This document shows positions 10,336 to 30,405 of a stretch of DNA of 33,052 nt, one piece after another (positions within the stretch are counted from its first letter, which is position 1; every line of letters begins with the position of its first letter). A program made the position numbers and the translations under genes. Origin of the DNA: Spirochaetia bacterium (GTDB taxonomy: Bacteria; Spirochaetota; Spirochaetia; Sphaerochaetales; Sphaerochaetaceae). The notes under the pieces are model-generated. The model saw only the letters and a list, made by a program, of their open reading frames with translations, did no database searches and was not told the origin of the DNA. The stretch covers positions 1 through 33,052 of the forward strand of contig RZYT01000005.1 in NCBI GenBank assembly GCA_009930195.1, given 5' to 3'.

Positions 10336-11400
10336 TTATATTTGCATCAACACGTGTGCGATGCGCTTTGCACTATCCCAGTCAGCACTTGCACCAAGTG
10401 CCTTTCCCATGCTTGTTCTTGCTTGCTCATCCTCAAGCAAGCCGAGGAGGGCCTCGGCAAACGAACCGTCACTTTCATCACCGTAGAGTACCCTTGCAGC
10501 GCCTGCGTTGGCAAGACGCTGTGCATTTTCCACCTGGTCCCCCCGGCTGTATGCCGAGGAGAGCGGAATGAGCAGGCACGCACAGCCGAACAGGGCAAGT
10601 TCTGCAAGGGTTCCTGCTCCTGCACGGCTCACCACCACAGTAGCATGGGCAAGCAATCGGGCAAGCTCGGTATCGATGAACGGCACCTTCCGATACCGCT
10701 CGGTTGCCGTCTCCTGCCCGTCCTCCCGGCCGCACTGGTGGTAGATGAACGCCTTTTTGGCAATTGCATCCACAGTATTTCGCACCAGATCATTGATCTC
10801 TGCCGATCCGCTGCTGCCGCCAAGAACCAGCACCAAGGGCTCACCGTCAGCCAAAAAGTCGGGTCGTTCCAATGTCTCTTTGTGCTTCGCCTGTTCGACC
10901 AAGGCCTTTCGGACCGGGTTGCCGCTTACAAACAGCTTGGAAGCAGGAAGCGTGTCAAAGCCTTGGTCATGGCTTACACAAACAGTACGCGAGAAATGTG
11001 CATTGATCCTGGTGGCAAGACCTGCGGTGGTGTCACTCTCGTGGCTGACGACCGGAATTCGCAGGACAAAAGCTGCCAGTACAGGAGGAACGGATACAAA
11101 GCCTCCCTTGCTGAACAACACATCCGGCCGGTGCCTTGAGAGAATACCGAGAGCCTGGAAAAAACCAAGGACAATATTTCCGATGTCCAGCACATTTCTC
11201 ATCGACCGGTACCGCCTGAGTTTTCCGCTTCGTATGGGAAAAAAAGACAGGCCTGCCGCTTCCACCACAGCCTTTTCACGCGCATTGTTGCGACCGATCC
11301 AAAAAGCCTCATAGGCAGGGCTTTCAAGCATCTGCTCATGTACGGCAAGGGCGGGATAGACATGACCGAGGGTACCTCCCCCTGTATAGCAGACAACCAT
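10336..11400 (-). CDS. murG: UDP-GlcNAc:undecaprenyl-PP-MurNAc-pentapeptide GlcNAc transferase MurG
   Basis: This GT28 enzyme makes lipid II from lipid I on the cytoplasmic face of the membrane. The protein starts MVVCYTGGGTLGHVYPALA, which is the N-terminal donor/acceptor loop (family GGGTGGHxxPA, here with L for the second-position G). It also has SHESDTTAGLATR and the C-terminal UDP-binding SRAGAGTLAELALFG. I choose the ATG at 11400 (354 aa, normal length). Its ribosome site is poor (GGAG only 2 nt away), and an in-frame ATG 13 codons upstream is an alternative. It is the first gene of the operon running to dinG and is divergent from secA. A 17-bp palindrome lies 43 nt upstream of the start. 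Confidence 0.93.
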   Translation of the reverse strand: MVVCYTGGGTLGHVYPALAVHEQMLESPAYEAFWIGRNNAREKAVVEAAGLSFFPIRSGKLRRYRSMRNVLDIGNIVLGFFQALGILSRHRPDVLFSKGGFVSVPPVLAAFVLRIPVVSHESDTTAGLATRINAHFSRTVCVSHDQGFDTLPASKLFVSGNPVRKALVEQAKHKETLERPDFLADGEPLVLVLGGSSGSAEINDLVRNTVDAIAKKAFIYHQCGREDGQETATERYRKVPFIDTELARLLAHATVVVSRAGAGTLAELALFGCACLLIPLSSAYSRGDQVENAQRLANAGAARVLYGDESDGSFAEALLGLLEDEQARTSMGKALGASADWDSAKRIAHVLMQI

Positions 11401-11442
11401 GGCTCCATGGTACCACGGTCTGGGAAAAACGACTACCATCTT

Positions 11443-11459
11443 TGTATCAATCTGATACA
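11443..11459. promoter_or_regulatory. Palindrome in the murG upstream region
   Basis: TGTATCA-ATC-TGATACA, perfect 7-bp arms with a 3-bp centre, lies 43-59 nt upstream of the murG start in the 176-bp murG/secA gap. The size and symmetry fit a dimeric repressor site; as RNA it could also form a small hairpin. No partner regulator is known from the window. Confidence 0.45.
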
Positions 11460-11520
11460 CTGTGGGTAGATTTGTCCCACCTTTTCTCACGAGTTTGACT
11501 TTTCTCCTTCCCAGAGAATG

Positions 11521-11550
11521 AGTATACTGGTAAGGAGGCTCTGCAGAGCC
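11521..11550. promoter_or_regulatory. secA/murG divergent control region: symmetric -10 and hairpin
   Basis: AGTATACT (11521-11528) is self-complementary, so a TATACT -10 candidate exists on both strands here. The matching -35 boxes are poor: TTGACT is 22 nt upstream on plus and TTGGCT 20 nt upstream on minus. AAGGAGG (11532-11538) is followed by the perfect 14-bp palindrome GGCTCTGCAGAGCC (11537-11550), which in the secA leader would fold over the G-rich end of this Shine-Dalgarno-like tract. The elements are visible, but their roles are inferred. Confidence 0.4.
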
Positions 11551-11576
11551 AAATACTTCCTGTAAGCGAGACATTC

Positions 11577-14342: not shown

Positions 14343-14349
14343 CAAAGGG

Positions 14350-14384
14350 GAGGCCGGACAAACTGTCCGGCCTCTTGCTTGTTT
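14350..14384 (+). terminator. secA rho-independent terminator
   Basis: A perfect 11-bp stem GAGGCCGGACA/TGTCCGGCCTC with an AAC loop, followed by TTGCTTGTTT. It lies between the convergent ends of secA and the NlpD-like gene and may work weakly in the other direction too. Confidence 0.92.
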
Positions 14385-14398
14385 CCCTGATGGAGTTT

Positions 14399-15502
14399 CT
14401 AGAAGAACTGTGCTGGATCGAGGGCGATGCCTGACTGCTCGATGCTGAAGAAGAGTGTCGGCCGCTCATAGGAAGTACCGCTGGTACCGATGCTGCCGAT
14501 GGTCTCTCCCTTTGCAAGGGTCATTCCGATGCGCACTTCCACGTTCTCCAGATGGTGATAGCTGGTCTTGTACCCACCCTCATGGCTGAGTACCACGAAC
14601 CGGCCCCTGCCCTTCACCTCATAGCCGGCATCCACCACCTGACCGGAGGCAGAGGCAACAACAGCGGAGCCATAGGATCCGACGATCAGGATCCCTTCCA
14701 GGCTTTCCTTGGTTCCGGTTGCCGGATTATCCACAGGCTGGCCGAACAGTGTGGTGATCGCACCGCTGGTGGGCTTCTGGAACTGGATGGGAGCCACATC
14801 GGCAAGCTGGGAGAGAGACGAGCTTGAGGTATCGGGGATGAAAATCTGCTGGCCGACCAGAATGTTCTCACTCTTGAGCCCGTTCATCTCCTGAAGCGTC
14901 TTCCAACCCAACGAAGGGCTGTACTTGCGGGCTATGGTGGAGAGCATATCCCCTTCACGAACCGTATAGAGCTGTCCATCACGATCGGGAATGCGGAGCG
15001 TCACCCCTTCCTTGATCGCCTGGATGTTCCTGATCTGATTCACGCTGATCAGCGTCTGGGTCTTCAGGCTGTAGAGAGCGGCAATGCTTGCCAGGTCCTC
15101 TCCTTCCCCCACCACATGGTCGATGAACTGTACAACCAGGGAGTTGGAGGGAGTGCGGGAAACAGGACGGTCGGAAAGTGAGCGGGCCTGGGTGTCGACG
15201 ACAGGGGCATCGGCAAGCGATGCAGCCTCTGGGATGGCAGCAGGTGCCGGTTTGACAACCTCCGGGGCATCGGCAATGGTCTCAACCTGGGGAAGCACCT
15301 CCCTGATCACTTCAGTCTTGGAAGGATCCTTGGCCCCTTGGGCCGGGAAGAACTGGTACCAGATCACAATCACCACTACACAGATGGCTATGCCCAGCGC
15401 GATGGTCCAGATCAGACCCCTGCTGGGTTTGGTTCGTTCCCCATCACGCCCCGATCTCCAAGAGGGACGTTCCTGCATATCATCATAGTAGTCTTTCGCC
15501 AT
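14399..15502 (-). CDS. Membrane-anchored LysM/degenerate LytM protein, NlpD/EnvC-like
   Basis: A 367-residue protein with a basic cytoplasmic N-terminus, one membrane helix (about 29-49) and a Pro/Ala-rich linker. It has two LysM domains (about 125-172 and 177-224) and a C-terminal M23/LytM fold (about 247-367). In active LytM enzymes zinc is held by HxxxD and HxH. Here the first motif is L268-E-G-I-L272 and the last is T349-L-F351, so three of three checked ligand positions are lost. Only H317 of the YxHL motif remains. This is the pattern of NlpD and EnvC, which bind peptidoglycan amidases and switch them on at the septum rather than cutting themselves. Its divergent neighbour is ftsI, which fits a division role. 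An amidase partner is not in the window. The activator role is an inference from lost ligands and domain order. Confidence 0.85.
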   Translation of the reverse strand: MAKDYYDDMQERPSWRSGRDGERTKPSRGLIWTIALGIAICVVVIVIWYQFFPAQGAKDPSKTEVIREVLPQVETIADAPEVVKPAPAAIPEAASLADAPVVDTQARSLSDRPVSRTPSNSLVVQFIDHVVGEGEDLASIAALYSLKTQTLISVNQIRNIQAIKEGVTLRIPDRDGQLYTVREGDMLSTIARKYSPSLGWKTLQEMNGLKSENILVGQQIFIPDTSSSSLSQLADVAPIQFQKPTSGAITTLFGQPVDNPATGTKESLEGILIVGSYGSAVVASASGQVVDAGYEVKGRGRFVVLSHEGGYKTSYHHLENVEVRIGMTLAKGETIGSIGTSGTSYERPTLFFSIEQSGIALDPAQFF

Positions 15503-15505
15503 ACC

Positions 15506-15534
15506 TCGACATTACCTTTCCTACATAGTAGTAT
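15506..15534 (+). promoter_or_regulatory. ftsI promoter, near-leaderless
   Basis: TCGACA (15506-15511), 17 nt, TAGTAT (15529-15534): five of six and four of six consensus matches. The expected start of transcription is about 15540-15542, only a few bases before the ftsI ATG. There is no Shine-Dalgarno sequence, consistent with a leaderless message. Confidence 0.5.
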
Positions 15535-15559
15535 AAAACAATCATGGCTACCAGTCCAA
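15530..15559 (-). promoter_or_regulatory. Promoter of the NlpD-like gene overlapping the ftsI promoter
   Basis: Minus-strand TTGGAC (15559-15554), 18 nt, TATACT (15535-15530). The -10 is good and the -35 is weak. This -10 shares five base pairs with the -10 of plus-strand ftsI, so polymerase cannot occupy both promoters at once. Confidence 0.45.
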
Positions 15560-17211
15560 AACACTCGTATATACGGTTCTTCACCGTGGTTGTTGCCCTC
15601 CTTTTGGGTCTTATTCTGGTCAGATTGGCATTTCTGACCCTCCAAGACCAATCTCAGAGCAAAACCTACACCAATCCTCAGGTAGCCTCGAAGGTGGTGC
15701 GGGGTACCATATATGATCGTAATCACCGAATTCTGGCAATACAAACACCCTACTGGGGAGTCTACTTCCATCTGAATTACATCAAGGACTTGCAGGTGGT
15801 GAGCGAACTCGTCGCCCCGTACGTGCAGATGAGTCCCCAGCAGGTGCAGGACAAGGCAAAACAATACACCACCTATGCACAGATCAAGGCGAGAATCGAT
15901 GAGGATCAGGTCCCTGCCCTCCTTGCAACCCTTGAAAAACATAAGCTCACCAAAGAGGTGACGGTGGAAAAGCGGCTGGGCAGAACCTACCCCGCCCTTT
16001 TCCATGCTTCCCAGACCCTTGGGTTCATCAACTCTGAACAAGAAGGCATCGAGGGGGTTGAGCTGAGCCAGGAACACTACCTCAACCCGTACCCCGAGGT
16101 GGGACAGGGAGAGGTCACCTATGGGGAAGACATCACCCTGACCCTGGACCTGGACATCCAGTATGCACTGGACGTCCAACTGCAGTTCATTGCAGACGAG
16201 CACAACCCCGACTATGCCATGGCCTTGGTGCTGGACGCCACCAATGGTGATATCCTGGGCATGTCCAGCTACCCTTGGTATGATGTGAACTCCCTCTCCA
16301 CCAGTACTGCGGTGCAAAGGAAGAATCATGCGGCAAACCTGCTGTTCGAGCCGGGCTCCGTCTTCAAGCTCTTCAGCTTGGCCACAGTGCTCGAAGCCGG
16401 GCAGGCAAACGTAACCGAGCCGTTTCTCTGTGACGGCTCCTACACCTTCTCCACCGGTTCGTCCAACGTAACCATCAACTGTACTGCACCCCATGGCTTG
16501 ATTGACCCGAAGACCATGATCGCAAAATCCTGCAACGGGGCAATCGTACACTGGGCGATGCAGACCGATGCGGATCTGTTCTATGAGACGCTCACAAAAC
16601 TTGGCTTCAATTCCAGCTATGACATCGGCCTCCCTTGCCGGCCCAGGGCTCAGATCGCTGAGCCATCCACGTGGTCCGGACGGTCACAGGCTACCATCTC
16701 GTTCGGTCAGGAGATGCTCGCGAGCGCCCTGCATCTAGCTGCTGCAGCCACTGCTCTCACCCAAGAGGGAGAACTTCTTCAGCCTCACCTCATCCTCAGC
16801 CGCAGTGATGCCGTAACAGCCGAGAAGACCTACCAGCGGGAGCGTACCGTCCTTGCCAAAGTTTTTTCCGGCGAGGTTGCCAAAACTGTACGCGCTGGCA
16901 TGCAGCAGGCCACCGAGGAAGGGGGGACAGGGGTGAAGGCTGTGGTTGAAGGTGTGGATGTAGGAATCAAAACAGGGACTGCACAACTGCTGAATCCCGA
17001 GACCAATACCTATGAGGACGGGACTGTTTTGGCTTCGAGCCTTGCCATGGTTCCCATCGACAATCCCCGCTACATCATCTATTTCGGAGCGGGAAATCCC
17101 AAGGGGAACACCATCTGGGGATCAAATATCGCTGGACCGGCCATCGCCAACGTGGTGAAGGCCTTGCTCAGCCAAGGAAAACTCGTGGCCAAGGATACTG
17201 AAATCCGTTAG
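15544..17211 (+). CDS. ftsI: Class B penicillin-binding protein, septal transpeptidase (FtsI/PBP2-type)
   Basis: This protein cross-links peptidoglycan in the periplasm, working with FtsW. The 555-residue protein has a short N-terminus and a membrane anchor (about 11-32). It has the pedestal motif VVRGTIYDRN (51-60) and a transpeptidase domain from about 190 with all three active-site motifs: S272-V-F-K275 (nucleophile serine), S329-C-N331 and K476-T-G478. ISFGQEMLAS (385-394) is also typical. There is no GT51 domain and no PASTA domain. It is not in its usual place between ftsL and murF; it stands alone here, divergent from the NlpD-like gene, and its stop overlaps the stop of the flhF-like gene by 4 nt. 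No ribosome site precedes it. FtsI is preferred over elongation PBP2 from its size and the ftsI-like motifs, but the distinction is not certain. Confidence 0.92.
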   Translation: MATSPKHSYIRFFTVVVALLLGLILVRLAFLTLQDQSQSKTYTNPQVASKVVRGTIYDRNHRILAIQTPYWGVYFHLNYIKDLQVVSELVAPYVQMSPQQVQDKAKQYTTYAQIKARIDEDQVPALLATLEKHKLTKEVTVEKRLGRTYPALFHASQTLGFINSEQEGIEGVELSQEHYLNPYPEVGQGEVTYGEDITLTLDLDIQYALDVQLQFIADEHNPDYAMALVLDATNGDILGMSSYPWYDVNSLSTSTAVQRKNHAANLLFEPGSVFKLFSLATVLEAGQANVTEPFLCDGSYTFSTGSSNVTINCTAPHGLIDPKTMIAKSCNGAIVHWAMQTDADLFYETLTKLGFNSSYDIGLPCRPRAQIAEPSTWSGRSQATISFGQEMLASALHLAAAATALTQEGELLQPHLILSRSDAVTAEKTYQRERTVLAKVFSGEVAKTVRAGMQQATEEGGTGVKAVVEGVDVGIKTGTAQLLNPETNTYEDGTVLASSLAMVPIDNPRYIIYFGAGNPKGNTIWGSNIAGPAIANVVKALLSQGKLVAKDTEIR

Positions 17212-18200
17212 GGCGAGGGGAAGAAGTGTGAACCGTCAAGGCTGAACAGCTTGAGACGGGGAACCAGAACCGATGCTTCTGCCTGGGAAAAGTCCTCCGG
17301 AATCTCCTGCCCATCCGCAACATAGAGCAAGGCAAGCTTGCTCTTGTCCAGGAAGGTGAGGATGTTGCCGATGGTACTGGTCTCATCAAGTTTGGTGACT
17401 ATCACCGAATCAAGGGCATGGGAGCCGAACTCCTCGTACTGGGAGAGCAAGTCGCCCACTTTCGCACTTGCATTGATGGTGAGGATGCGACTTGTCTGCT
17501 CCAGAGGCAAGACGGTAAGCAGGGCCTGAAGGTCCTGGCGCAAAAACTCATCCTTGATGCTGCTGCCGCTGGTATCGACAAAGACATGGTCAAACTCCGA
17601 AAGGGATGGCATGAGACTTTGCACCGCCTGGACCGAGTCAGCCTCAAAGAGCGGGAGGGAAAAATTCCTGCACAACTCCCGTACTTGCTGCACAGCTCCG
17701 ATCCGGTGCACATCAAAACTCAGCACCGCAACCTTGCGACCCTGATGTGAACGCAAAAAAAGGGCAGCCTTCACCAAGCTGGTGGTCTTTCCCACCCCGG
17801 CAAGACCGACCAGAACCAGAAATTTCCGGGCAACCTGGTCGGCAAAAGCCAACTCCTCAAAGAGACGCCGCACAAGCAGAATCTCAACCTCAGCCTTCTC
17901 AGATCCGCTTGCCAAGGCAAATTCCTCGGCAAGGGAGGGAGGAAGGTCATTCGCAAGCAGCAACGATTGCAAATAGGCGACTGCATCATAGGGTTCCTGC
18001 TGCTGAACCTCCTCTTCCTCGTTGGGCATCGGAGATTCGGCAACCAAGTAGAAGGTGATCCTGCACGCCTGCTTACGGGAGAGGGCGGAACCTTTGCTGA
18101 AATCCTTGCGTGTATGAACGCGCACTGCATTGCCGTACTCCCTACGGGCCTGGCGCAGTGCGCTCTCATAATCGGTGGATTCAAGCGTGAGGAATTCCAA
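17208..18200 (-). CDS. flhF: FlhF-like SRP-family GTPase
   Basis: FlhF places the first flagellar parts at the cell pole in motile bacteria. The 330-residue protein has a short N-terminal B domain, whose ALRQARREYGNAVRVHTRK is the FlhF signature, then a linker, then an NG GTPase domain. G1 is GLAGVGKTT (132-140). DVHRIGAVQQ (163-172) is the FlhF/SRP insertion motif. G3 is DTSGSS (209-214), where SRP GTPases normally have DTAGR. G4 is TKLDE (269-273). DGQEIPEDF is the closing loop. Loss of the G3 arginine may weaken hydrolysis. It starts 8 nt after hslU and ends the mraZ operon. No other flagellar gene is in the window. It may be a relic of a deleted flagellar operon or a protein with a new polar or septal role. 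FtsY and Ffh are excluded by the N-terminal domain and the absence of an M domain. Confidence 0.85.
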   Translation of the reverse strand: MEFLTLESTDYESALRQARREYGNAVRVHTRKDFSKGSALSRKQACRITFYLVAESPMPNEEEEVQQQEPYDAVAYLQSLLLANDLPPSLAEEFALASGSEKAEVEILLVRRLFEELAFADQVARKFLVLVGLAGVGKTTSLVKAALFLRSHQGRKVAVLSFDVHRIGAVQQVRELCRNFSLPLFEADSVQAVQSLMPSLSEFDHVFVDTSGSSIKDEFLRQDLQALLTVLPLEQTSRILTINASAKVGDLLSQYEEFGSHALDSVIVTKLDETSTIGNILTFLDKSKLALLYVADGQEIPEDFSQAEASVLVPRLKLFSLDGSHFFPSP

Positions 18201-23550: not shown

Positions 23551-24795
23551 CTACTTGTCGTCCGGCTTGTTGCGTGAGTAGCGCAAGACCGCAGGAATCG
23601 TATAGTCGTTGCTATTGGTGTTCGGTCCCTTGCCAAGTTGCTTCTGCAAGTCCTGCCAGCGGTTCACCTGGATCGCACCTACATCGCTCTCCTCTTCCGA
23701 CTGCTTCTTGGCTGCAGGAGCACTCTCGTCTTCCTTGTGCTCGCTCACCTTTGCCGAAGCATAGCGTCGCTTCACCATATCCATATCGGCAAGCTCTGCA
23801 CCCACAACATCTTCCTTGCGTTCAAAGCCTGTAGCAACCACCGTCACCTTGATGCGGTCCCCAAGTTCGGGATTGAAGGCCTGCCCGGCGATCACCAGGG
23901 CATCCTCTGCACACTTTTCGGTGACCAGCTCCACCACATCCTGATACTCCTGCAAGGTGAGGTTGTCACTGCCTGCAAGGTTCACCAGTACGCTCTTCGC
24001 CCCTTCAATGCTCGCATTCTCAAGCAGGGGATTGTTGATCGCCTGCCGTGCAGCATCAACGGCACGGTTTGCACCCTCACCAAAGCCGATACCCATCAGG
24101 GCATCGCCCTTCCCTTTCATGACGGTGCGCACGTCAGCAAAATCGATATTGATTTCACCCGGCTCGGTGATGAGCTCGCTGATGCCCTGCACTCCCATGT
24201 ACAACACCTCGTCGGCCATCAGGAAGGCCTGCTTGATCGGGGTGTTGTTCTCCACTACCTTCAGCAGGTACTGGTTGGGGATGATGATCAGGGTATCGAC
24301 CTGCTTGCGCAGCTTCTCGATGCCTGTCTGGGCAAGCATCAGTTTCTTCTTTCCTTCAAAGGCAAAGGGCGTGGTAACCACGGCGACGGTCAAGGCATTG
24401 CAGCTCTTTGCAATCTCAGCCACCACAGCAGCCGCACCGGTACCGGTACCTCCCCCCATACCCGCAGTGATGAAGACCATGTCGGCATTCTCAATTTCTC
24501 GACGAATGTCCTCCTTGCTCTCCTGGGCGGCCTTCTCCCCAACCTCGGGAATACCTCCGGCTCCGAGACCTCCGGTCAGCTCCTTGCCGATTGGGATGCG
24601 GATTTGTGCATTGGATCGCTGGAGGGCCTGCATATCGGTGTTCATGGTGACAAAATGCACCTTCTTCAAGCCGCTGGCGATCATGCGGTTCACCGCATTG
24701 CCACCAGCTCCACCTACCCCGATCACTTTGATGATCGTGGAGGTGGCCTGTTCGTCCTGGACCATATCCTCTACTTCAAACATTCCAAAATCCAT
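23551..24795 (-). CDS. ftsZ: Cell division GTPase FtsZ
   Basis: A tubulin-like GTPase that forms the Z ring. The 414-residue protein has IKVIGVGGAGGNAVNRM (22-38), the tubulin signature GGGTGTG (114-120), the T7 synergy loop around NIDFADVRT, a variable acidic linker (about 345-390) and the C-terminal conserved peptide YTIPAVLRYSR that binds FtsA and ZipA-like partners. It follows ftsA by 27 nt. It is a normal FtsZ with no missing key residue. Confidence 0.98.
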   Translation of the reverse strand: MDFGMFEVEDMVQDEQATSTIIKVIGVGGAGGNAVNRMIASGLKKVHFVTMNTDMQALQRSNAQIRIPIGKELTGGLGAGGIPEVGEKAAQESKEDIRREIENADMVFITAGMGGGTGTGAAAVVAEIAKSCNALTVAVVTTPFAFEGKKKLMLAQTGIEKLRKQVDTLIIIPNQYLLKVVENNTPIKQAFLMADEVLYMGVQGISELITEPGEINIDFADVRTVMKGKGDALMGIGFGEGANRAVDAARQAINNPLLENASIEGAKSVLVNLAGSDNLTLQEYQDVVELVTEKCAEDALVIAGQAFNPELGDRIKVTVVATGFERKEDVVGAELADMDMVKRRYASAKVSEHKEDESAPAAKKQSEEESDVGAIQVNRWQDLQKQLGKGPNTNSNDYTIPAVLRYSRNKPDDK

Positions 24796-24822: not shown

Positions 24823-26070
24823 TTAGAACAATGTCCTGAAAAAATCACGGAGCTTTGAGGATGCTCCACCCTCTTTGCGCCGTACCCGATCCTTGCGGGC
24901 CTTTGGAGAAGATCCCGTCTCACGGACTTTGCGCGCTTCGCTCTTGAGCAGCCCCAACACCGTGGTGTACTGGGGACTGATGTAGGAGCGGTCCAAACCC
25001 CCGATAGCCTCGGGAAACCCCAGACGAGCCGGAAGCCGGAAAATCTCGCTGGCAAGCTCGGTAACACCGCTGAGCAGCGCTCCACCCCCTACCAACACCA
25101 CACCGCCTCCGAACGAACCCTGCACCTGTGCTTTCTCAAGGTCACTTTGCAGGCGGGAGAAGATCTCTGCCATCCTGGGCTCAATGACCTTGCTCAGTTC
25201 TTTCTTGGGCATCTTGATCGGAGGAAGCCCCCCGACTTGCGGGATGAGGATCATATCCTCACTGGAGACCGAAGGGACATAGCTGTGTCCGCTCTCGCAT
25301 TTGATCTGTTCAGCTGCGGCACGAGTCTTGTTCAGGATATAGGCAATGTCATTGGTGACAGCCTCCCCTCCCAGGTTCACCCCCCCGGTGTATACCGGAG
25401 ACCCATTGGTATAGGCAATCATATTGGTGATGCCGCTGCCGATGTTGATGAGGATGGTCCCCATCTCCTTCTCTTCACTGCTCAGTACAACTTCACTGTC
25501 TGCAAGGCTTTGCAGGACAAGACGTTGCACCGAAAGTCCGGATCGCTGGATGCATTTTCGTTCATTCTGGCAGATGGCCGACGAAGCGGTTACGATAAGC
25601 ACGCGACTCTCCAGCCGGTGCCCAAGCATATCAATCGGATCCTTGATGCCCATCTGGCCATCTATCTGGAAGTCCTGCACCAAGGTATGAAGTATTTCCC
25701 TATCCTGGGGAAGCTCGAAGGCCCGGGCAACCTCAAGAGATCGGAAGATGTCCTCACGCTTGATTTCCTGGTCCTTGCTGTTGATCCCCACCACCCCGGT
25801 ACTGGGGATGCCGATGATGTTCTCCCCCCCGATGCCGATGATGACTTCACTCATCTCCGCCCCTGCCTGGAGCTCAGCCTCATTGATCACCGTCTGGATG
25901 GTTTTCAGTGTCTGTTCAATATTGACGATTGAACCGGCACGGACTCCCTCGCTCGGATGCTCACAGATGCTGTCGACCATCAACTGGCCTTCACGGCTCA
26001 CCGAGCCGATTACGCATCTGGTCCGGCTGGAGCCGATATCCAGTCCCATCAACATTTTATCTCCAGCCAT
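24823..26070 (-). CDS. ftsA: Cell division protein FtsA
   Basis: An actin-like ATPase that tethers FtsZ to the membrane. The start at 26070 is chosen because a G-rich AAGGGGG lies 8 nt before it; the open frame extends 50 codons further but overlaps the ftsQ end and is not FtsA-like. The 415-residue protein has the phosphate-1 loop GLDIGSSRTRCVIG, the phosphate-2 loop LINIGSGITN, VLVGGGALLSGV and the adenosine-binding region. The C-terminal basic amphipathic helix SSKLRDFFRTLF is the membrane-targeting sequence. It lies between ftsQ and ftsZ as usual. Confidence 0.96.
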   Translation of the reverse strand: MAGDKMLMGLDIGSSRTRCVIGSVSREGQLMVDSICEHPSEGVRAGSIVNIEQTLKTIQTVINEAELQAGAEMSEVIIGIGGENIIGIPSTGVVGINSKDQEIKREDIFRSLEVARAFELPQDREILHTLVQDFQIDGQMGIKDPIDMLGHRLESRVLIVTASSAICQNERKCIQRSGLSVQRLVLQSLADSEVVLSSEEKEMGTILINIGSGITNMIAYTNGSPVYTGGVNLGGEAVTNDIAYILNKTRAAAEQIKCESGHSYVPSVSSEDMILIPQVGGLPPIKMPKKELSKVIEPRMAEIFSRLQSDLEKAQVQGSFGGGVVLVGGGALLSGVTELASEIFRLPARLGFPEAIGGLDRSYISPQYTTVLGLLKSEARKVRETGSSPKARKDRVRRKEGGASSKLRDFFRTLF

Positions 26071-26098
26071 TACAGCAACCCCCTTATGGTCGGTCTCA

Positions 26099-26854
26099 TT
26101 ACCTCTGCACCAAGCCCTCTTGATAGAGGTCGTATCGCCTGGTCGGCGAGCTGAGGAAGGAAAGCGCATCCTGTTGGTCCTGCTGGACCACAAGCATGGC
26201 TGCTTGCACAATGTGTGCACCCACAGGCTCCCTCACCCAAATCTGGGCATTCAGGGACGAGAGTTCCAGAACCATCTTTCCAAAGCTGTTACTACTATTA
26301 TTATCGTATTTTATCCTAGTTATCAAGGTAGTTTTGCCTTCAAGGGACCGTGCCAACGCCATTACCTGGGCAAACCCCTCATCAATTCCATGACGAGCCA
26401 TCATCCGGGCATAGGAAAGGGGAACCTCAATGGTGAGCACGACCTTCTTCCAGGAAGGGACATCCCTGCTGTCAAGCATCACCAAGCTCTCACCGGTCAC
26501 CAAATACGAGTCTTGCCCATCCTCTCCTTGCACCAAAGCCAAGGCATCGACAAGGGTCAGGTCAACCATCAGGGTGGAAGGCAGGATCCGTTTCAGCTTT
26601 GCTTTGGAGACCGGCCCATAGGCTTCGAGTTTGGCCTCTTGCTTTCCGAGATTCATGGCAAAAAGGGAGGTTCCCACCATTGCTGAGAGATACTGGGCAA
26701 CCTCAGCGGGAACCTGGGCGCTGCCTTGGTGTGCCGCCACCTGCACAGAGCTGATCATAAACTGGGGAACGGAGCGCAGGGTGAACAGCAGCAGCAACGC
26801 AAGCAGCGGGAGCAGCAAGAGGACCATCTTGGTCTTGATGCCAATCCCTTTCAT
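26099..26854 (-). CDS. ftsQ: Cell division protein FtsQ/DivIB
   Basis: A single-pass membrane protein of 251 residues that links the FtsWI synthase to FtsL. It has a short basic cytoplasmic start, a membrane helix (about 9-27), then a POTRA-like domain beginning near FMISSVQVA, followed by a beta domain. Sequence identity to known FtsQ is low, as usual for this family, so the call rests on the topology, the size and the position between ftsW and ftsA. GGGGG lies 7 nt upstream of the start, which overlaps the ftsW stop by 4 nt. A short run of AT-rich codons (KYDNNSSNS) stands out from the GC-rich surroundings. Confidence 0.85.
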   Translation of the reverse strand: MKGIGIKTKMVLLLLPLLALLLLFTLRSVPQFMISSVQVAAHQGSAQVPAEVAQYLSAMVGTSLFAMNLGKQEAKLEAYGPVSKAKLKRILPSTLMVDLTLVDALALVQGEDGQDSYLVTGESLVMLDSRDVPSWKKVVLTIEVPLSYARMMARHGIDEGFAQVMALARSLEGKTTLITRIKYDNNSSNSFGKMVLELSSLNAQIWVREPVGAHIVQAAMLVVQQDQQDALSFLSSPTRRYDLYQEGLVQR

Positions 26855-28086
26855 GATCGTTCCCCCTCGTCGGGGAACAGGATTGCCTTGCGCTCCCCCT
26901 CATCAAGTGAACTTTTCTGCAGGGGTATCTTTCCGCTGCTGATCAACAGGATACGATAGAGGATCGAACAGGATGTCAGTACAATGAAGAGGTTCGTGCC
27001 CCCTTGGCTGAAAAACGGCAAGGGTATGCCGGTGGGGGGAAGCATGGCTGTCACCACCCCCAGATTCAGGATAGCCTGGAAGAGAATCATGCTTGTAAGG
27101 CCAAAGGCCGTGATGCTGAGAAACCGGTCACGGTCACGCATTCTTGCCGCGGCATTGTAGCCAAGAATTGCAAGCATGGCAAAAAGGATCAGGACAAACG
27201 CACAGCCGGCAAGCCCGAGCTCCTCACACATGGACGCAAAGATGAAGTCACTCTGCACTTCGGGAAGCAAACCAAGCTTGTAGGTTCCATTTCCCAAGCC
27301 CACCCCGAACAGTCCCCCTTTCTGGATGGCCTTCAGGGAGGTGGTGACCTGGTAGTTCATGCCAACCGGGTCAAGGGAGGGAAACAGGAAAGACACGATG
27401 CGCTTGACCCGATACGACTGGGAGAACAGGCCTACCAGCGCGGGGGGAACGAGGAACGCAAACATGATGAGCAAGGTGGATATCCTCAGTCCGCTGGCAA
27501 GCATCAGGGAGAAGGAGATTGCCAGGAAGAGAGCGGCGGATGAGTAATCACGCTGCAAGAAAATCAGCAGCGTCATCCCGATGCTGACAAGAAACGGCAG
27601 AAGGAAACGGCGCAAAAGCGACTGGTTTGAACGGTCGAACCTGAAGTAATAGGCATAGAAAAGCACCAAGGCAAGCTTTGCAAACTCCGATGGCTGGAGG
27701 GAAGGAAGCGGCCCTATCTGCAACCAGCGCCGGGAACCAAGACGTTCCTGACCAAAGGGGGTGAAAAGGGTCATCAGCAGTAGAAGCAGGGAAACCAGGA
27801 GAATGGGATAGCTGAACATCTTGATCCAGGAGATCGGGATGAACCGAATGACCACAAAGACAACCAGGGCCAAGGCAACGAACATCAGCTGACGCGTCAG
27901 AAAGTAATGATGCGGAAGATTGTGGATGAGCGCCTCGTTGTAGGAAGCACTGTAGAGCATGATCAAACCGAAACCGGTGATGAGCACCACCACACAAAGA
28001 AATGTGAAGGGGCTGAAATTTCCCCCTGCTTCGACCAAACTCTCCGTCTGTTGCTGATAGTCATCGAATTCCCTTCGTATATCCAT
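26851..28086 (-). CDS. ftsW: Septal peptidoglycan polymerase FtsW (SEDS family)
   Basis: This enzyme polymerises lipid II at the septum with FtsI. The protein is 411 residues from the ATG at 28086, which has AGGTGA as ribosome site and avoids overlap with mraY; a longer frame by 15 codons is possible. About ten membrane helices are visible. SEDS marks are GSRRWLQIGPLPSLQPSEFAK-type loops, the catalytic aspartate region LQRDYSSAA (family QxDxGTA) and the late loop MLPPTGIPLPFFSQGG (family LPFISYGG). The Y to Q change in that loop and SSA for GTA are unusual. The partner ftsI is encoded separately about 10 kb away. Confidence 0.94.
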   Translation of the reverse strand: MDIRREFDDYQQQTESLVEAGGNFSPFTFLCVVVLITGFGLIMLYSASYNEALIHNLPHHYFLTRQLMFVALALVVFVVIRFIPISWIKMFSYPILLVSLLLLLMTLFTPFGQERLGSRRWLQIGPLPSLQPSEFAKLALVLFYAYYFRFDRSNQSLLRRFLLPFLVSIGMTLLIFLQRDYSSAALFLAISFSLMLASGLRISTLLIMFAFLVPPALVGLFSQSYRVKRIVSFLFPSLDPVGMNYQVTTSLKAIQKGGLFGVGLGNGTYKLGLLPEVQSDFIFASMCEELGLAGCAFVLILFAMLAILGYNAAARMRDRDRFLSITAFGLTSMILFQAILNLGVVTAMLPPTGIPLPFFSQGGTNLFIVLTSCSILYRILLISSGKIPLQKSSLDEGERKAILFPDEGERS

Positions 28087-28091
28087 GGCAT

Positions 28092-29027
28092 TCACCTGGA
28101 GAGCAGCAAGGATGCTGCCCCGAACAACCAAGAGACCAGAATGAAGGAGATGACAATGCGGTTCTCCTTCACCCCCTTCAGCTCATATGCGTGGTGCAAG
28201 GGTGCAATGGTGAACACCTTTTTCCCGAATCTTCTGATGGAGATGATCTGGATGAGACTGCTCGCCAACTCGACGAGAAACAAGCCGCTTGCAACAAAGA
28301 GGGCAACCTCGGCCTTGAGCAACAGGCCACTTATGGCAAGGTATCCTCCCAAGGCATGACTGCCGCAATCCCCCATGAAATACTTTGCCGGGCGGCGATT
28401 GAACCAGAGGAACGCCAACAGGGAACCGAGCAAGGCAGGAGATGTTGATTCGGAGCGCTGGACCGAAAACAGGATGATCAACAGAAGCATCGGCAGGCTC
28501 GACCCTGCTGCCAGAGCATCCAGACCGTCGGTAATGTTGATTGCATTCACAAAATACAAGATGTACAGCAAGGCGAGGAGATAGTAGGCAGGACCCAGCG
28601 AAAGCGAGGCAAACCCAAGATCGAGCGTGGTGTCGATGAGGCCATGCTGCTTGAGAATAATCAGAAGAAGCAGGGCAGCCTGCACCTGCAGGGCCAGCTT
28701 GAGCAGCGACGGAAGCCCATCACCATTGCTGGAGGTCTGCTTGAGGCGGTCATCCAAAAATCCCACCAAGGCAAAAAGCATGAGGCCGAGCAGAGGATAC
28801 AGGACCGTCGGAGAGGCAAGGTGCGGATCGGACAAGGTCACGGCAAAGGTCCCCAAAGTGAAGGCCACGCCCCCGACCACCGGCGTCCCCTGCTTGGATG
28901 CGTGCACCTGCCGCAGTTCGGGCTTTATCGCCACAGAGCTTCTCCCCACCAATGACAAGAGAACCTTCGAGAGGACGAAGGTCAACAACAACGAGGCAAG
29001 CAATAGGATCGAAAACCTGCTAGGCAT
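28092..29027 (-). CDS. mraY: Phospho-MurNAc-pentapeptide transferase MraY, with unusual motifs
   Basis: This enzyme transfers phospho-MurNAc-pentapeptide to undecaprenyl phosphate to make lipid I in the inner membrane. The 311-residue protein (short for MraY) has about ten membrane helices. The metal motif GFLDDRLK (D92, D93), NAINITDGLDAL (161-172) and MGDCGSHALGG (218-228; family MGDTGSLALGG) are present. The late loop is APLHHAYELKG (275-285), where typical MraY has HHH. The third histidine is Ala280, the T of the GDTG motif is Cys, and the L is His. It overlaps murF by 8 nt, and its AAGGAGG lies in a small CCTCC-AAA-GGAGG hairpin. A WecA-like transferase is the alternative, but gene context and the HH motif favour MraY. 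Confidence 0.9.
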   Translation of the reverse strand: MPSRFSILLLASLLLTFVLSKVLLSLVGRSSVAIKPELRQVHASKQGTPVVGGVAFTLGTFAVTLSDPHLASPTVLYPLLGLMLFALVGFLDDRLKQTSSNGDGLPSLLKLALQVQAALLLLIILKQHGLIDTTLDLGFASLSLGPAYYLLALLYILYFVNAINITDGLDALAAGSSLPMLLLIILFSVQRSESTSPALLGSLLAFLWFNRRPAKYFMGDCGSHALGGYLAISGLLLKAEVALFVASGLFLVELASSLIQIISIRRFGKKVFTIAPLHHAYELKGVKENRIVISFILVSWLFGAASLLLSR

Positions 29028-30405
29028 AGGAACGCACCCTCCTTTGGAGGAAGGGTATCAGCCGTTCCATGCCGACCGATCTTGAGGCTTTCAGCAAGTA
29101 GAGATCCCCACTCTTGGATTGGGTTCCCACTTCCGCTTCCAGATGGGAAAACGATTGGGTGTAGGAGACTTCTCCTGCATACGGTGAGTGCTTGAGGCAG
29201 TAGGCCGCCTCTTCCATCTCCTCGCCGTACAGGTAGGCTTTGCTGAAGGATGAGGTGGAAAGAATATCGGCAATGCTGCGATGTGCCTCGCGTGAGCATT
29301 GGCCAAGCTCTTTCATGGGACCAAGCACCACTTTCTTTGCTCCACCCCAAGAGAGGGAGGAGAGGTAGCGAAGGATGCTGGACGTCGAGTCAAGACTGGC
29401 GTTGTACGAGTCGTCGACGATGGTAACCCTGCTGCGATGGACAAACGAGCGGCCATGCATCGGCTCAAAGCCCTCCAGGGCGTGAGCGATTGCAAGAGGA
29501 TCTGCTCCCAGGTAGGCTCCCACCCTGATGGCACCAACCACATCTTCCAGAAGGTGTCTTCCCACTGACCGGATCCTGAATGTCTGTCCTCCATAGGAGA
29601 GCTGCCATCCCTCGAGACCCAGGTCCTGGGCCTCGATGTCGTTGGCGCTGTATCGGCCAAGGGCCACAGAAGCCTGCTTCTGGATCAGATCGAAGTGCTT
29701 GCAGTCCCTGCTTACAAAGCCTGCTTTCAGTTCAGGGTGGAATATCCTTGCTTTTTCGCTGGCAATCGTCGTTTCACTGCCCATCTTTTCCAGATGAGAG
29801 ATGCCGATGTTCGTCAGCACCGCGACCGAAGGCTTGAGAATGGAAACCATCCGGTCCATCTCCCCTATATGGTCGATTCCCATCTCAAACACACCATACC
29901 TGCTCTCGCGTCCCAGGCCGAAAATGCTCAAGGGAAGTCCGAATTCGCTGTTGAGGTTGCCGGGAGTCCTTGCTGTCGGTCCCAAGACGCTGGTGATGCG
30001 GGCTATCGCTTCCTTGGTGGTGCTTTTGCCACAGCTTCCGGTGATACCCACCGTCTGCAAGGAAGGTATGAGACCCAGGTAGGAACGGGCTAATGAGTGC
30101 AAGCTGGAGAGTACATCGTCACAGCCCAAGACTGCGATGGAAACTTCCTTCAGCGCACGCTGTACCTGGGCATACGGGACAACCACAGCACTGGCTCCAT
30201 TGGCCTGTACCTGTGCAAGGTACGAAATTCCGTCAACCTTCTCTCCCTTGAGAGCAAAAAAGAGCGAGCCGCTCGTGCACTGTCTGCTGTCAATCTGCAC
30301 ATTGGTGATGCGTGCATCAGAGCCACGCAGGCACGTTGCATTGCAAAGCGATGCAATGCTGCAGGGATCGAAAGCAAACTGTGCAAGCTGCTGGCTATCA
30401 GTCAT
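29020..30405 (-). CDS. murF: UDP-MurNAc-tripeptide D-Ala-D-Ala ligase MurF
   Basis: This cytoplasmic ligase adds the D-Ala-D-Ala dipeptide to make the UDP-MurNAc-pentapeptide. The 461-residue protein has the Mur ligase N-terminal domain (about 20-105), the P-loop GSCGKSTTKE (family GSxGKTTTKE), NLNSEFGLPLSIF, the EMG motif in FEMGIDHIGEMDR, and the C-terminal DDSYNAS signature. AGGAG lies 6 nt before the ATG. It overlaps ftsL by 8 nt. murE, murD, murC and ftsI, which flank murF in many dcw clusters, are absent here. Confidence 0.95.
   Translation of the reverse strand: MTDSQQLAQFAFDPCSIASLCNATCLRGSDARITNVQIDSRQCTSGSLFFALKGEKVDGISYLAQVQANGASAVVVPYAQVQRALKEVSIAVLGCDDVLSSLHSLARSYLGLIPSLQTVGITGSCGKSTTKEAIARITSVLGPTARTPGNLNSEFGLPLSIFGLGRESRYGVFEMGIDHIGEMDRMVSILKPSVAVLTNIGISHLEKMGSETTIASEKARIFHPELKAGFVSRDCKHFDLIQKQASVALGRYSANDIEAQDLGLEGWQLSYGGQTFRIRSVGRHLLEDVVGAIRVGAYLGADPLAIAHALEGFEPMHGRSFVHRSRVTIVDDSYNASLDSTSSILRYLSSLSWGGAKKVVLGPMKELGQCSREAHRSIADILSTSSFSKAYLYGEEMEEAAYCLKHSPYAGEVSYTQSFSHLEAEVGTQSKSGDLYLLKASRSVGMERLIPFLQRRVRSYA

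Follow-up and report, generated by a model that had tools for sequence, protein, structure and literature searches.

LytMx, a gene on the reverse strand of the DNA analysed here (a window of 33,052 nucleotides from a Sphaerochaeta genome), encodes a membrane-anchored protein with two LysM domains and a LytM domain that carries no zinc ligands. Considering (i) the linkage and co-distribution of LytMx with ftsI and ftsW, (ii) an N-terminal motif that it has in common with FtsW, and (iii) its presence in relatives that possess neither an amidase nor the genes of wall synthesis, we propose, with a probability of roughly 0.6, that LytMx is a non-catalytic LytM component of the FtsW–FtsI division complex. 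The original prediction, made from the window alone, had been an NlpD/EnvC-type activator of a cell wall amidase.

LytMx and its genomic surroundings

The features of the protein and of the neighbouring division and wall genes are as follows; relatives whose wall-synthesis genes are missing are called wall-less for short.

14399–15502, reverse: LytMx, membrane-anchored LysM–LysM–degenerate LytM protein, 367 amino acids (open reading frame, Pfam, zinc-position alignments)
15476–15487, reverse: N-terminal motif YDDM, residues 6–9, presumed cytoplasmic; also at the FtsW N-terminus
15350–15421, reverse: single transmembrane helix, residues 28–51 (hydrophobic sequence; pLDDT 75–79 within an otherwise poor model)
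14987–15118, reverse: LysM 1, residues about 129–172 (Pfam LysM)
14834–14968, reverse: LysM 2, residues 179–223 (Pfam LysM), the most conserved part in walled species
14414–14698, reverse: LytM/M23 domain without zinc ligands, residues 269–363 (Pfam)
14687–14701, reverse: HxxxD position, L268...L272 (alignments)
14450–14458, reverse: HxH position, T349-L-F351 (alignments)
15503–15543, no strand: 41 bp separating the LytMx start from the divergent ftsI start (open reading frames; its promoter-like sites are consensus matches only)
15544–17211, forward: FtsI-type class B PBP with SVFK, SCN and KTG intact (Pfam, motifs)
10336–11574, reverse: murG; wall-less relatives have no murG in the cvpA–secA interval
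23551–24795, reverse: ftsZ, kept in wall-less relatives
24823–26220, reverse: ftsA, kept in wall-less relatives
26099–26854, reverse: ftsQ-like gene, kept in wall-less relatives (divergent, missed by blastp in a few)
26851–28131, reverse: FtsW, catalytic Asp (PEVQSDF) intact, FDDY motif near the N-terminus at 28057–28068
28092–30405, reverse: mraY and murF; wall-less relatives have this cluster without exactly these two genes

The LytMx ATG is preceded by a GAGG-type ribosome site, and Pfam matches the product to LysM in two stretches (E 1.7e-20) and to Peptidase_M23 at residues 269–363 (E 3.1e-20). We read the zinc positions by alignment to EnvC and NlpD of Escherichia coli MG1655 and to active spirochaete M23 proteins. 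The catalytic residues of an M23 endopeptidase (HxxxD, HxH) are absent, and the catalytic-type histidine of the YxHL motif (H317) is still present. The original prediction had read leucines at both ends of HxxxD and T and F at HxH, and the alignment places these same residues there (L268, L272, T349 and F351); the domain order it gave, a membrane helix, two LysM domains and LytM, agrees with the open reading frame, the Pfam matches and the predicted helix. It was also right about a spirochaete host, as near-identical loci come from Sphaerochaeta, and about a catalytically dead domain, a state that extends to relatives: the zinc site is absent from all of the approximately 80 homologue loci read across the order. 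The predicted full-length model (10-row alignment) has a mean pLDDT of 45, with about 25 in the LytM part, and the LytM domain modelled alone has a mean of 34, confidences too low for either model to be used.

A sequencing or assembly artefact was ruled out as the source of the zinc-less state because independent genomes show it identically. L004, from another genome of the species, has a copy that is 99.7% identical and equally zinc-less, and the gene is under purifying selection. The notion that LytMx is the sole LytM protein of its genome had to be softened, since a second M23 protein (L185, L186, L187) occurs in close relatives and in a complete genome of this species. This protein is unrelated to LytMx, membrane-attached, without LysM and with an intact HLHF motif; it was not found in the window's own assembly.

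LytMx sits between secA and the oppositely read class B PBP gene, with flhF-like, hslUV, xer and dcw genes nearby. The divergence from ftsI that had suggested a division role is thus real: the two reading frames start 41 bp apart, and the secA–LytMx–ftsI arrangement is conserved across the whole order. The FtsI-type PBP is the only transpeptidase-domain gene, and FtsW the only SEDS protein, found in this genome. On the other side of ftsI, and beside it across the order including the wall-less members, lies a gene for an FlhF-like SRP-family GTPase (17208–18200, reverse) that scores below the FlhF cut-off; the order is reportedly non-flagellated. The genes secA and LytMx converge, and between their ends a strong hairpin of 13 pairs (14348–14376) resembles a terminator for secA.

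Descent from an active peptidase

Of 119 genomes of the order, 104 gave LytMx in a protein search. Searching the phylum with a profile and checking neighbourhoods located a divergent LysM-M23/ftsI pair in other spirochaete families as well (f2, f3, f4, f6, f7 and f8), two of which, f2 and f7, also have secA adjoining the pair. The ftsI-linked M23 proteins of these families retain an intact H-D-H-H-H zinc site in all 27 sequences examined, and an unrooted maximum-likelihood tree splits the zinc-less proteins of the order from all others with supports of 84–100. Since the ftsI-linked counterparts elsewhere keep the zinc site and the zinc-less group separates in the tree, these sequences indicate an active spirochaete M23 peptidase, with ftsI as its neighbouring gene, as the ancestor of LytMx, and a single loss of the zinc ligands at the base of the order.

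Zinc-less LytM regulators are already known (EnvC, NlpD, ActS and DipM), and the accepted view of degenerate LytM proteins is that they act as switches of amidases that cut the wall. By its deduced descent from an active ftsI-linked enzyme, LytMx is convergent with NlpD, EnvC and DipM and is a member of neither the NlpD nor the EnvC family. LytMx reaches no NCBIfam cut-off of these families (ActS 72 of 375 bits, NlpD 55 of 311, EnvC 36 of 270). The NlpD/EnvC-type label therefore holds for the degeneracy, which in EnvC is of the same kind (K..V and S.Y, compared to L..L and T.F in LytMx), but not for family membership. LytMx furthermore lacks the coiled coil and restraining arm of EnvC, its N-terminal half consisting of the transmembrane helix, a linker and the two LysM domains, and it lacks the lipobox of NlpD, which reads N, D and R, H at the zinc positions and so keeps one Asp and one His.

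By E-value, the best NCBIfam match of LytMx is DipM (NF050804, 9.5e-26), although at 91 of 900 bits it is far below the cut-off. DipM of Caulobacter combines LysM repeats with a catalytically inactive LytM domain (PMC10336132), and the two proteins are alike in having tandem LysM domains followed by a dead LytM domain and a division role. They differ in that DipM is soluble, periplasmic and has four LysM domains, whereas LytMx is membrane-anchored, carries a cytoplasmic motif, is encoded beside ftsI and is kept where autolysins and wall genes are missing. Closest by descent are the active LysM-M23 proteins of the other spirochaete families (L157, L160, L162, L166, L167, L174), which have the same place at the side of ftsI and the same LysM–LytM layout, but in which the H-D-H-H-H site is intact and not, as in LytMx, gone. 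SpoIIQ of Bacillus-type spore formers is a zinc-less M23 structural protein. It parallels LytMx in using a LytM domain for protein contacts and not for hydrolysis, and it matches LytMx weakly in NCBIfam (6.3e-10), but it belongs to sporulation, has no LysM and has another partner. What appears to be new in LytMx, judged by these comparisons, is its separate origin, the combination of a membrane anchor and a cytoplasmic motif, and its retention after the loss of wall genes.

Loss of amidase and wall genes in relatives

The genome of the window encodes an N-acetylmuramoyl-L-alanine amidase, as an activator would lead one to expect: a single Amidase_3 enzyme with its catalytic H, E, H and E residues present. 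The original prediction had further proposed looking for an AmiC-like amidase with an autoinhibitory helix, and the enzyme does have an insertion. Amidases controlled by such activators have a blocking helix with a Glu latch, an HxD zinc site and an interaction helix, and Asp135 of AmiA is an extra, fifth zinc ligand of the autoinhibited state (PMC10268282). All 30 amidases of the family carry Asn at the position of AmiA Asp135, and their insertion, compared with that of E. coli AmiA, contains no conserved Glu and no Glu167-type latch. The insertion is shorter than in AmiA (about 39 residues in the enzyme of this genome, about 48 in AmiA, 9 in CwlV), and the best NCBIfam match of the enzyme is CwlD, not an AmiA/B/C equivalog. 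Some regulation of the amidase through the insertion is possible, while E. coli-type autoinhibition is not evident from the residues.

Families were counted in 71 genomes of the order with a completeness of at least 93%, the genome of the window (92%) being counted as well. Amidase_3 occurs in 42 of these genomes, M23 (LytMx) in 68 and the FtsI pedestal in 69. LytMx thus does not occur only where the amidase occurs: it is kept in 26 of the 29 amidase-less genomes, so that 26 of the 68 LytMx-bearing genomes are without any Amidase_3. Genome by genome, the amidase disagrees with LytMx in 26 cases and the FtsI pedestal in 1 of 71; the 26 genomes are related and count as two independent losses. 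Since these genomes have LytMx and no Amidase_3, their gene content indicates that amidase activation cannot be what retains LytMx there.

The 29 amidase-less genomes fall in six genera (g3, g5, g9, g10, g15 and g16), the 26 that keep LytMx making up g3, g10, g15 and g16. None of the 29 has a transpeptidase domain (PF00905), a MurA above the cut-off or a MurJ-grade match, and Mur-ligase matches are reduced to one or two weak ones, compared to the usual five or six. The 26 are without MurA, MurC–F, MurG, MraY, MurJ and every transpeptidase domain. In the wall-less genomes murF and mraY are gone from the dcw cluster and murG from the cvpA–secA interval, in an otherwise fixed gene order. Incomplete assemblies were ruled out as the cause of the missing amidase, as the genomes are at least 93% complete, the wall genes are consistently absent and the gaps are at fixed places. 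Because of this absence of wall genes, observed in MAG-type assemblies, the 29 amidase-less genomes probably belong to bacteria without peptidoglycan. A tree of FtsZ, FtsA and RsmH makes g3 the sister of the walled genus g6 (support 100) and sets g10, g15 and g16 apart, which argues that wall genes were lost at least twice.

As a group, g3, g10, g15 and g16 (L052, L058, L060, L111–L119) together with g5 and g9 have apparently lost peptidoglycan synthesis and kept a trimmed dcw cluster. Bullifex porci, a relative, has muropeptides and murA–G and is without homologues of PBP1a, PBP2 and PBP1C (PMC7738495). For S. coccoides, one transpeptidase is encoded in all (PMC4423922), and this fits our finding of one class B PBP in the walled members. 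The literature searched, which covered subscription journals poorly, did not mention wall-less Sphaerochaetales or a retained division module.

In the ten dcw clusters that we read from g3, g10, g15 and g16, ftsZ, ftsA, the ftsQ-like gene and ftsW stay in order, FtsQ being too divergent for blastp in a few wall-less genomes. FtsW is matched in all 26 genomes of these genera at 25–32% identity. For FtsW of E. coli, the role of D297 has been described and activation has been placed at the interface between ECL4 and the FtsI pedestal (PMC8765783). The equivalent Asp is replaced (by E, S, K or P) in most of the wall-less FtsW sequences examined (L111–L119), and some g3 members keep it. Wall-less FtsI (L052, L058, L060, L050) is reduced to the membrane helix, the PBP_dimer pedestal and terminal strands, with the stretch from SxxK to KTG deleted. 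LytMx lies beside this stub, and LysM and M23 matches are present in all 15 wall-less LytMx proteins scanned. Three g3 genomes that seemed to be without LytMx have a strongly diverged copy in place. In a subgroup of g3 (L176, L177, L178), strongly diverged LytMx frames are longer, at 512–525 amino acids, and still adjoin the FtsI stub. LytMx is lost in g5 and g9, which have the smallest genomes: g5 retains FtsI as a 238-residue remnant and a very weak FtsW, and in g9 these two are missing as well.

LytMx is under constraint with and without a wall, its dN/dS being 0.052 in a walled pair (the window and L033) and 0.075 in a wall-less pair (L059 and L071). The constraint is distributed differently between the domains. 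The mean pairwise identity of LysM2 is 0.62 in walled members, 0.34 in wall-less g3 and 0.50 in the other wall-less group, whereas that of LytM is 0.44–0.46 across all three groups (0.44 in both the walled members and g3). As LysM2 drifts while LytM conservation is unchanged after wall-gene loss, these identities indicate that constraint on the LytM domain, unlike that on LysM2, does not depend on peptidoglycan.

A proposed role in the FtsW–FtsI complex

The N-terminus of LytMx, on the presumed cytoplasmic side of the helix, follows the pattern M-x-[RK]-[DNE]-x-Y-D-D-[MY]. FtsW proteins of the same genomes (the window and L111–L119) carry FDDY, YDDF or YDDWNFMG near their start. A [YF]DD sequence followed by a hydrophobic residue is found near the start of 50 of 56 distinct LytMx proteins and 11 of 15 FtsW proteins, and in none of 515 proteins from 22 neighbouring gene families; the YDD motif is likewise absent from M23 proteins of other orders. 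Present in LytMx and FtsW and nowhere in the 22 families, the motif suggests a link between the two proteins and a common cytoplasmic partner.

Four readings of LytMx can be weighed against these data. As a classical amidase activator, it would bind the regulatory insertion of the single Amidase_3 in its LytM groove and pull it from the active site during daughter-cell separation. The genome has one catalytically intact amidase with such an insertion, every amidase-bearing genome has LytMx, the degeneracy is EnvC-like (RPSLYF in EnvC, RPTLFF in LytMx), and DipM, with the same LysM–LytM layout, binds AmiC via its groove (PMC10336132). We nevertheless consider this unlikely as the principal function, given the 26 genomes that keep LytMx without an amidase, the Asn that replaces AmiA Asp135 in all 30 family enzymes, the lack of a conserved Glu latch and the CwlD affiliation. 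What survives of the activator prediction is the dead LytM domain, the division context and the presence of an Amidase_3; in walled species, LytMx may have the additional job of activating the one amidase, with which none of the data conflict.

Less probable still is a non-catalytic sensor or tether, in which LysM and the dead LytM cleft would bind the septal wall (or another periplasmic glycan in wall-less members) and link the inner membrane mechanically to the envelope with no direct role in FtsWI. The membrane anchor, the long linker and the two LysM domains in all wall-less members scanned would suit such a protein, but it is LysM2 and not LytM that relaxes after wall-gene loss, and the cytoplasmic motif in common with FtsW points to the divisome. 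It is very improbable that LytMx is left over, in decay, from the ancestral endopeptidase beside ftsI and has been retained by chance or because it sits at the secA/ftsI promoter region: the zinc ligands are lost and the gene is gone from the smallest genomes, g5 and g9, but dN/dS values of 0.05–0.08 between near relatives reveal purifying selection, the full-length frame is open in more than 100 genomes and the LytM core is conserved in all three groups. Neighbourhood and shared motif point to the FtsW–FtsI complex without proving one, and we prefer membership of LytMx in this complex. Genus g5, which has an FtsI remnant and a weak FtsW but no LytMx, counts against it, and a function independent of FtsWI could also account for the retention of LytMx in wall-less lineages.

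As a component of the FtsW–FtsI complex, LytMx would act as follows. The YDD motifs of LytMx and FtsW would bind the same cytoplasmic division protein, FtsA and FtsZ being candidates, and the pseudo-active-site groove of the LytM domain would hold a periplasmic protein segment, most likely the FtsI pedestal or FtsQ/FtsL. By this groove contact the FtsW–FtsI complex would be kept at the constriction. In species with a wall, the LysM domains would additionally bind septal peptidoglycan and may link the state of the wall to FtsWI.

A wider proposal, to which we give somewhat less than even odds, is that two lineages of Sphaerochaetales lost peptidoglycan yet divide by a stripped divisome of FtsZ, FtsA, FtsQ, dead FtsW, the anchor and pedestal of FtsI, and LytMx. 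These proteins would represent a wall-independent mechanical module inside the wall-synthesis complex, and LytMx would belong to it as a constitutive subunit.

The active site alone is insufficient to name zinc-less LytM proteins amidase activators. The set found in walled Sphaerochaeta is minimal, with one SEDS protein, one class B PBP and one Amidase_3, and in wall-less relatives LytMx is kept after the amidase and wall genes are gone, alongside an FtsW that has mostly lost its catalytic Asp and an FtsI from which the transpeptidase domain is gone. The comparison of walled and wall-less members thereby makes it testable which parts of the divisome are mechanical or structural and which only make wall.
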